DNA from: Candidatus Saccharimonadota bacterium
GTDB taxonomy: Bacteria > Patescibacteriota > Saccharimonadia > Saccharimonadales > Saccharimonadaceae
Assembly: GCA_017514045.1 (NCBI GenBank)
Contig: JAFWLS010000020.1
Location: forward strand, 1-64,000
Reading direction: 5' to 3'
DNA length: 64,000 nucleotides
Shown: piece after piece, positions 19,138 to 23,660 of the stretch
Position numbering within the stretch: the first letter of the stretch is position 1
How the letters are laid out: each line of letters starts with the position of its first letter
The notes under the pieces: generated by a model
What the model was told of the DNA's origin: nothing
Seen by the model: only the letters and a program-made list of their open reading frames with translations
Databases searched by the model: none
Made by a program: the position numbers and the translations under genes

Positions 19138-19164
19138 AAAATTCCTTTTCTCTATTTAAGTTTT

Positions 19165-19244
19165 GTAATCTTTAGCGCCGAAGATTACTGCCGATTTTCA
19201 TAGCTTCTGGTCGCCAGCCTTTAGCTATCTCGCAAAAAATCAGC
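19165..19244 (-). promoter_or_regulatory. structured rpoBC leader
   Basis: Two nested structures are visible. GCTGATTTT (19236-19244) pairs with AAAATCGGC (19190-19198), enclosing AUAGCU/AGCUAU and CUGG/CCAG stems. Next to it GTAATCTT pairs with AAGATTAC (19165-19188). This is too regular for a plain leader. A regulatory role in RNA polymerase synthesis is inference. Confidence 0.6.
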
Positions 19245-19263
19245 AAACTGCTTCTTACGGATG

Positions 19264-19292
19264 ATTATAGCAAAGAAGAATGATAAAAACAA
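19264..19292 (-). promoter_or_regulatory. rpoBC promoter
   Basis: TTGTTT, 17 bases, TATAAT; +1 near 19257. Confidence 0.8.
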
Positions 19293-20459: not shown

Positions 20460-22367
20460 CTACTCGACAGTAGTACCTTCGTAGGCGGTACCGACGAACC
20501 AAACTTCACCGGTTCCTTTATCACGGATAAGGAAGAGGAATGGTTTGTCGAAGGTGAGGTCGATTTCATCAACTGGGACGTCCCATCTGTAATCAAATCT
20601 TTCCATGCCGCCTGCGCCCATGCCGCCAAAGGCAGTGACAGCGGCTGCTTTGATGCCTTCATTGCTAAAGTCTATGTCGGCCTTATGGATTGCGACGCTG
20701 ATATGTGGTTTATGCGGAAGAGTTGGGTCGAAGACAATCATGTTAGAGAGGTCAGCATCTTCGATTGAGAAGACATCGGTGACGCCTAGGCTCCGAAGAT
20801 GATCCATGAAACTATCCATAGTAAAGCTGAATTTGAAGAAAGGAATGTAGCCATTGAGCTTGGTGACGACACCTTCTTTGAAAGTTTCTAATTGTTCGGG
20901 GTTTTTCAAAGAAGAGATAAGGGCGGAAGCTTTTTCCGCAGTGAGGTTATTGATGTAAGCATTAAGAGAACCAGTCTTTGGCATGATGCCGACGTATTGG
21001 AAAGTAGAGCCATCGTATTCTTGGAGATCTTTGGCGAAAACTTTTTCTTCGTCAGTGTCTAAGAAGTAAAAATCTGTAGATGTATCTAAACGATTATAAT
21101 TTGAGCTGAGCTGTTTAATATATTCATCTAAGTCGAAAGATGAGTCGTAGCAGTCTTGTTGACATTCTTTATATCGGTCTTGAACATCTTCGAGCCATTC
21201 GTTGTATTTCGCTTGAACGGTTTCGCGGATATAACTTTCTCCTAGTTCCTTGATGATGTTGTATCGATTGGCACTGGTAGCTATTTTACCGCTGGCTACA
21301 TCCTCTCGACCGTTAAAAGTCATTTTGGATAAATCCATGCACGCGACGCTATCGTAGTAGTTTTCATGGGCGTAATAAACGCCGTATTTCTTATATGGAA
21401 TGGTAGCATTAAAGTCGCACTGCAAGGCATTGTTCCATTTCATATCGATAGCGAGGGCGTTCACGAGCATATAGTCGAGGTCTTCGTTAACCGTCCCTGC
21501 GTCGAAAGTGTTTTTGATGATGCCGAGAGTCTTATCTTCAACCCATTTGTTGGCGTTATCCGGAGAAGCGAATGGATCGTAGATAACCTCGGCGTAATAT
21601 TTGTTCTTTAGGGTATCGGTATAGGTAGGCTTAACGTTCTGAGAGAAGTCGGTGCGGATGAACATGGCGTTCGCGAGCGAGCGATTAGCGCTGTTTAGGT
21701 AGGCTTTGGGTTGATAGTCGCCAATGACGGCGGTGATTTGCTCTCTGGAGCGGCCGTTTGCGCCATCTGCGAGCATAGCGAGGGCATATTTGATGGAGAG
21801 AGGGCTATATATCACGTTTCCCTGCTTGTTTTCTAGATGAAGGAAGGCGAGGTCAAAGTCGCTGAGGCTGTTGTCTTTGAGGGCGAGTTGACTGACTGGG
21901 ATAGGTTCTAGGTCGGGTGCTGGCTCGACGTTATTTTGGATAGAAGTGTCCGACGCGGTCCCATTGCCGCGTAGTAAGAAGTACCAGACGGCGAAGCCGG
22001 CAAGGGCAAGGACGAGCAAAACAATCAGAGCTATGCGGACGATTTTCTGGCGTTTTATTGGATCGATTTGTTTCGCGCTGAGAGGGTCTAGTCGGGCGCG
22101 AGGGGCCTCGACTGGGGTTTCGAGCTCAGCCTGAACAGAGATGGTGGGCTTTCTAGGCTTTGCTTCTGTTTGTGGCGCTTCGGGCGCTGGCTGTTCCGCA
22201 ATTGGCTCCTCGATTGTTGGCTGATTGAGTGGTTCGATGGGAGTTTCTACCTGTCCTTCCGTTGCGATTTCCGAAACCGTTTCTCCGGGAGTTGGCTGAA
22301 TCGACCCTTCGGTCGATTGTTCCGGTGCTCCCGACGCGAGTGAGGTAGTTAAGTTTTCTTCATCCAT
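20460..22367 (-). CDS. membrane-anchored serpin
   Basis: A 635-residue protein. Residues 1-105 are Pro/Glu/Thr-rich and disordered, a membrane helix spans about 112-130, and the rest is a serpin domain presumably outside the cell. Serpin marks include NVIYSPLSIKYALAMLADGA, VNALAIDMKW and the C-terminal DKPFLFLIRD. The hinge of the reactive loop, NEGIKAAAVTAFG, has small residues as in inhibitory serpins. The loop before DKPF is about 13 residues longer than in alpha-1-antitrypsin. An insert of about 100 residues with several cysteines follows the IDMKW strand. The target protease is unknown. ATG at 22367 has a weak AAAGG site. Confidence 0.9.
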   Translation of the reverse strand: MDEENLTTSLASGAPEQSTEGSIQPTPGETVSEIATEGQVETPIEPLNQPTIEEPIAEQPAPEAPQTEAKPRKPTISVQAELETPVEAPRARLDPLSAKQIDPIKRQKIVRIALIVLLVLALAGFAVWYFLLRGNGTASDTSIQNNVEPAPDLEPIPVSQLALKDNSLSDFDLAFLHLENKQGNVIYSPLSIKYALAMLADGANGRSREQITAVIGDYQPKAYLNSANRSLANAMFIRTDFSQNVKPTYTDTLKNKYYAEVIYDPFASPDNANKWVEDKTLGIIKNTFDAGTVNEDLDYMLVNALAIDMKWNNALQCDFNATIPYKKYGVYYAHENYYDSVACMDLSKMTFNGREDVASGKIATSANRYNIIKELGESYIRETVQAKYNEWLEDVQDRYKECQQDCYDSSFDLDEYIKQLSSNYNRLDTSTDFYFLDTDEEKVFAKDLQEYDGSTFQYVGIMPKTGSLNAYINNLTAEKASALISSLKNPEQLETFKEGVVTKLNGYIPFFKFSFTMDSFMDHLRSLGVTDVFSIEDADLSNMIVFDPTLPHKPHISVAIHKADIDFSNEGIKAAAVTAFGGMGAGGMERFDYRWDVPVDEIDLTFDKPFLFLIRDKGTGEVWFVGTAYEGTTVE

Positions 22368-23509: not shown

Positions 23510-23529
23510 TAGATAATAGGGATAGAACC

Positions 23530-23553
23530 AAAAAACCACCCCTATTGGCGTGG
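23530..23553 (-). terminator. terminator of the candidate small RNA
   Basis: CCACGCC and GGGGTGG arms (one mismatch) with T6 on the minus strand; it may also end rnc readthrough. Confidence 0.75.
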
Positions 23554-23625
23554 ATTTTTGAACATATAAGCTCTCAACTTTTATGTGTAAGTTGGCTCGC
23601 AGTTAGCCGTTTGTTCAAAAGAACT
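23530..23625 (-). ncRNA. candidate small RNA with three-way junction
   Basis: About 96 bases lie between a full-consensus promoter and a hairpin terminator with no good reading frame between them. TTTTGAACA (23612-23620) pairs perfectly with TGTTCAAAA (23556-23564). Inside that stem are two hairpins, GGCT/AGCC (23594-23608) and AACTT/AAGTT (23576-23593). The terminator CCACGCC-AATA-GGGGTGG plus T6 closes the unit. It fits no RNA family I know; 4.5S, 6S and tmRNA signatures are absent. It could instead be an attenuator for the 22910 gene, but that gene has its own promoter further on. Confidence 0.65.
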
Positions 23626-23631
23626 GTAATA

Positions 23632-23660
23632 AGTATAAGCCAAATGGAGCCTGATGTCAA
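23632..23660 (-). promoter_or_regulatory. promoter of the candidate small RNA
   Basis: TTGACA, 17 bases, TATACT, starting nine bases after the rnc stop codon; +1 near 23625. Confidence 0.8.

Follow-up and report, generated by a model that had tools for sequence, protein, structure and literature searches.

Small RNAs (sRNAs) of the CsrB/RsmZ type carry several hairpins that repeat one short loop motif, and are transcribed from their own promoter to an intrinsic terminator. KH-domain proteins of the KhpA/KhpB family have also been reported to bind sRNAs in Gram-positives and Fusobacterium, in the passages of PMC12456014 that cite work on S. pneumoniae, C. difficile and F. nucleatum. Here we describe an RNA of Saccharibacteria that recalls both systems. 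It is encoded in a stretch of 64,000 nucleotides (nt) from a Candidatus Saccharimonadota bacterium (contig JAFWLS010000020.1, positions 1 to 64,000), hereafter called the window, and, judged from sequence comparison, it is a genuine sRNA, absent from Rfam and undescribed. Like the CsrB/RsmZ RNAs it combines a promoter and an intrinsic terminator of its own with a repeated loop motif that appears to be under selection, and protein titration is the action that we propose. Unlike them, it is shorter, it has one to three copies of the motif, and this motif is UG[CA]GAG and not GGA, which its loops lack. Thus, we do not file it as a member of that group and propose only that it works like one. In contrast to the KhpA/KhpB-bound sRNAs, it is tied to KhpA by genomic linkage, which makes it a putative KhpA-binding RNA. 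In the open-access literature we found neither a description of a conserved small RNA of Saccharibacteria nor of an sRNA gene with a promoter lying across the khpA stop codon.

Results

The transcription unit in the window consists of the following elements, the start of the RNA being placed from the position of the -10 box and its end from the terminator:

~23625 to ~23527, minus strand: small RNA body, ~98 nt (98-99)
23660 to 23632, minus strand: promoter, with -35 box TTGACA (23660 to 23655), a 17-bp spacer and -10 box TATACT (23637 to 23632)
23553 to 23536, minus strand: hairpin of the intrinsic terminator, followed by U6 at 23535 to 23530
23527 to 23563, minus strand: extended terminator, UUCAAAAA / UUUUUUGG around CCAC..GUGG, in which 5 of 11 pairs have changed on both sides

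The promoter is of the sigma-70 type and agrees with the consensus at 11 of 12 positions. A promoter with at least 9 of the 12 positions lies upstream of the RNA in 98% of 114 distinct relatives, against 12% of shuffles. From the conservation of promoter and terminator we infer that the RNA is transcribed. A sequence-only reading of the window had proposed a complete unit with a consensus promoter, an RNA body and a hairpin terminator, conforming to no known RNA family. This was borne out, and both its coordinates and its 9-bp closing stem proved exact. At the gathering score, the Rfam scan of the window returned no family except a 23S ribosomal RNA end, and at E<=1 nothing overlapped the small RNA in the window copy or in three relatives; the RNA belongs to no Rfam 15 family at or near the gathering score.

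By blastn the RNA was found in 38 of 100 relatives, nearly all of the same genus, and in 30 aligned copies ACUGCGAG and GUUGAGAGCUU are invariant, with variable hairpins. A 20-base core pattern, ACTGCGAG-N6-36-GTTGAGAGCTTA, gave at least 115 matching stretches in GTDB genomes; the 80 matches listed are all titled Saccharibacteria but one, titled only "bacterium". The pattern matched no viral contig, and a phage origin was rejected. A covariance model detected the RNA in 106 of 113 genus genomes (>=90% complete), with a single match in all but two of the positives. The two double matches, in G054 and G379, may be assembly effects, since G054 has its two at the ends of contigs and the G379 assembly is ~5% contaminated. 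The 845-kb window genome itself has one copy; a repeat element was rejected, the RNA being single copy. A second covariance model, built from members in other genera, was run on a sample of the order, 295 genomes in 143 genera, and at E<=0.001 recognised the RNA in 62 of the genomes and 27 of the genera. These counts are lower bounds since this model misses known members; a sample of the phylum gave no match beyond the order.

The predicted structure and the conserved loops involve these segments:

23620 to 23612, minus strand: 5' arm of the closing stem, UUUUGAACA, in perfect 9-bp pairing with UGUUCAAAA
23564 to 23556, minus strand: 3' arm of the closing stem, UGUUCAAAA, whose A-tract also pairs with the terminator U-tract
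23594 to 23608, minus strand: hairpin 1, GGCU-AACUGCG-AGCC, with the invariant ACUGCGAG
23613 to 23624, minus strand: 5' hairpin, GUUC-UUUU-GAAC, an alternative partner of the 5' arm of the closing stem
23596 to 23601, minus strand: loop motif copy 1, UGCGAG, invariant in the alignment
23570 to 23578, minus strand: loop motif copy 2, GUUGAGAGC

The closing stem encloses two hairpins, GGCU..AGCC and AACUU..AAGUU, in a three-way junction. Against shuffles, the small RNA has a folding z-score of -3.3. In the full-length RNA, the minimum-energy fold differs from the junction: in folding prediction, the pairing probability of the closing stem is ~0.9 without the terminator hairpin and ~0 in the full RNA, because the terminator U-tract takes the A-tract of its 3' arm. 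Given this competition, two exclusive folds are predicted, both of them computed only, as is their competition. The three-way junction of the sequence-only reading stands in that its closing stem and inner hairpin covary, but it would be one of two mutually exclusive folds and not the minimum-energy fold of the whole RNA.

Covariation was evaluated by permuting arms between sequences and comparing cognate with non-cognate pairing, in 43 non-redundant sequences overall. In this set, permuted arms did as well as cognate ones in 4/2000 cases for the distal closing stem and 0/2000 for the proximal hairpin, as opposed to 581/2000 for a control pairing, and the inner hairpin reached z = -10.4. When the genus group was taken alone, the counts were 0/5000 for the closing stem and 100/5000 for the proximal hairpin, against a background that is not flat (control pairing, 140/5000). 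In the family group the inner hairpin covaries strongly (z = -7.6); the closing and proximal pairs do not, because those arms hardly vary there. Compensatory forms of the closing stem among relatives include GAACA/UGUUC, GGCAU/AUGCC and AGCAU/AUGCU, and the terminator stem, including bases past the U-tract, also shows two-sided changes among relatives. Conservation of the stems in relatives had been named beforehand as a test that could bring the candidate down, and it was found in the closing stem, the inner hairpin and the terminator. For the 5' hairpin, GUUC(N3-8)GAAC is seen again in many relatives, with weak covariation (overall, z = -2.5; genus group, z = -1.3); the outer 5' arm is absent from many genus members.

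The loop motif is repeated within the RNA, as UGCGAG and UUGAGAG, with one to three copies of UG[CA]GAG per RNA. Moreover, a GUUGAG-type sequence such as that of the second copy recurs in the terminator hairpins of relatives, where it was observed in 31 of 89 distinct hairpins and expected in 0.8. As terminator loops otherwise change freely, this recurrence suggests that selection maintains a binding site that is accessible. Hand inspection of the internal loop UGCGAG/GAGAG for a kink-turn showed that the needed 3'-side GA is missing in some members of the order.

The neighbouring genes of interest are:

24388 to 23669, minus strand: rnc (RNase III), in the window genome the gene upstream of the RNA
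23437 to 22910, minus strand: uncharacterised 175-aa gene, directly downstream of the RNA
19806 to 19390, minus strand: khpA (KH_KhpA-B, PF13083), the neighbour of the RNA across the order, here ending GAT ATC TAA C without an overlapping -10 box

The window RNA, with its own promoter, sits between rnc and rpsP. The sequence-only reading placed it directly after rnc, which is correct for the window genome, but the tie is incidental, khpA being the neighbour across the order. In 35 of 36 scorable loci of the family and order, the khpA stop is on the same strand and no more than 130 nt upstream of the RNA, and in the remaining one the RNA is also behind khpA, at a larger distance. In other genera and families the C-terminal end of khpA before the RNA reads ..ELAELDDLDI-stop. 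Four out of five low-scoring matches in other families are, by inspection, preceded by the khpA end and the fifth by a near-identical ..EDLDDLEI-stop. In the window, and likewise in many genomes of its genus, the RNA has left its place next to khpA.

At the khpA-adjacent loci, the -10 box coincides with the last codon and the stop of khpA (GAT-ATA-TAA-T). ATATAAT was present at the end of khpA in 71 of 85 cases in which the RNA is its neighbour and in at most 3 of 62 in which it is not; since the overlap is confined mainly to the adjacent cases, it points to a promoter of the RNA itself. In those other genomes in which inserted DNA separates the RNA from khpA, a TATAAT-type box adjoins the RNA. 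The overlap with the stop, the box beside the displaced RNA and the conservation of the promoter together argue for an independent RNA and not a mere 3' untranslated region (UTR).

Some other features of this region were observed. The 175-aa protein encoded downstream has no Pfam match and a 42%-identical relative at the same position in L012. A gene with a serpin domain (PF00079, E 2.6e-46) lies at 20460 to 22367 on the minus strand, between rpsP and khpA. A conserved leader precedes rpoB (19138 to 19270, minus strand); its 18-mer GCAGTAATCTTCGGCGCT is found in 45 of 211 related loci, it has no Rfam match in the window, and it is a candidate rpoB leader RNA.

The rpsP-khpA cluster, in which the RNA described here lies, also carries ffh in Gram-positives. 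No Ffh M domain (PF02978) was detected in the window genome (14/14 in the control), and none of 99 order genomes had a match for a small signal recognition particle (SRP) RNA; the SRP seems to be absent or unrecognisable. The RNA described here shares with SRP RNA (RF00169, RF01854) a size near 100 nt, whereas it lacks a recognisable domain IV. The SRP RNA identity was rejected, with no match to either family in the window genome, none to SRP RNA in the 99 order genomes and no Ffh M domain in the window genome. Two matches of an SRP domain IV pattern were likewise discarded, as neither has an SRP fold or an SRP match.

Discussion

The signals of a transcription unit, its conservation, the covariation, the repeated motif and the linkage to khpA can be read directly from the genomes compared. 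Less directly, we infer a protein partner, its sequestration and any role of the fold switch. We tentatively favour an independently transcribed housekeeping sRNA that presents repeated loops to a protein, most likely KhpA/KhpB, and sequesters or modulates it, a reading that we regard as plausible though somewhat short of probable. The RNA most likely originated immediately behind khpA and would often have stayed near the rnc-rpsP-khpA-rpoBC cluster. Its conserved loops UGCGAG and UUGAGAG may be offered to a sequence-specific RNA-binding protein, the putative binding loops being UGCGAG and GUUGAGAG. The proximity to khpA suggests a partnership with KhpA, and the linkage, together with the sRNA binding reported in other bacteria, makes this KH-domain protein, with KhpB, the likeliest partner. 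During synthesis, the nascent RNA would form the closed three-way junction, and completion of the terminator hairpin would draw the A-tract away from the closing stem, so that the RNA switches to separate hairpins.

Some points weigh against this proposal. The linkage to khpA may be an inherited position only, the sequences share ancestry, so that the permutation counts are not strict probabilities, and the conserved loops could equally be seeds for pairing with messenger RNAs (mRNAs). The last is the main rival: a base-pairing, trans-acting sRNA with the loops ACUGCGAG and GUUGAGAGC as seeds for a single mRNA or more than one, KhpA/KhpB perhaps acting as matchmaker. RNAs of that class typically have this size, a promoter of their own and an intrinsic terminator, and both seed-like loops are invariant here, but neither has a complement above chance level within the window, where an antisense target was therefore rejected, and the presence of the motif more than once in an RNA and again in terminator hairpins is more in keeping with a protein site. 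We consider base pairing possible but rather unlikely. Its place immediately after khpA at the family and order loci would also agree with a cis element, that is, a structure in the khpA 3' UTR or an attenuator, transcribed by read-through from khpA and regulating khpA or the gene that follows. However, the RNA keeps a strong promoter of its own after relocation, precedes unrelated or opposite-strand genes as well, and the ATATAAT box over the khpA stop persists chiefly in genomes with the RNA next to khpA, so that a cis element seems improbable.

It might also be asked whether this RNA binds RNA polymerase in the manner of 6S RNA. As 6S RNA (RF00013) does, it occurs as a conserved, single-copy, stand-alone RNA with a housekeeping distribution; the Rfam 6S model has no match in the window genome, rpoB is nearby in the window and several relatives, and the RNA is near rpoBC in many genomes. 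Nevertheless, at ~98 nt it has about half the length of 6S RNA, it has no long near-continuous helix with a central, open-promoter-like bubble, its conserved parts are short loops, and its order-wide linkage is to khpA and not to rpo genes. Identity with 6S RNA was rejected for the missing RF00013 match and the wrong architecture, and we hold even a 6S-like role to be quite improbable. Least likely, to a degree that makes it hardly credible, is a short coding gene in which GAGAG..AUG UUC AAA AAN would be the ribosome site and start. An AUG does lie ~8 nt past GAGAG in many members, but CUG replaces it in several (L006, L007, L010), the second codon and the frame vary, with AUG UGA in others, and stops are unconserved, the tail being explained by the terminator helix. 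A small protein was rejected, as neither start nor frame is conserved; the sequence-only reading had seen no reading frame.

Carried further, the proposal of an sRNA that presents its loops to KhpA/KhpB would describe a lineage-defining RNA-protein module, with the promoter placed in the stop codon of the partner, a conserved two-state fold, and binding loops exposed by completion of the terminator; this extension is speculative and we think it unlikely as a whole. Saccharibacteria are widespread, tiny, host-dependent (parasitic) bacteria with very small genomes, and the retention of a single copy across the genus in genomes of ~0.8 Mb indicates that the RNA likely matters to the cell. Through its link to khpA, the RNA offers a direct way to test which features KH-domain proteins recognise, and the khpA stop, serving at once as a promoter element, is a clean case of overlapping selection.
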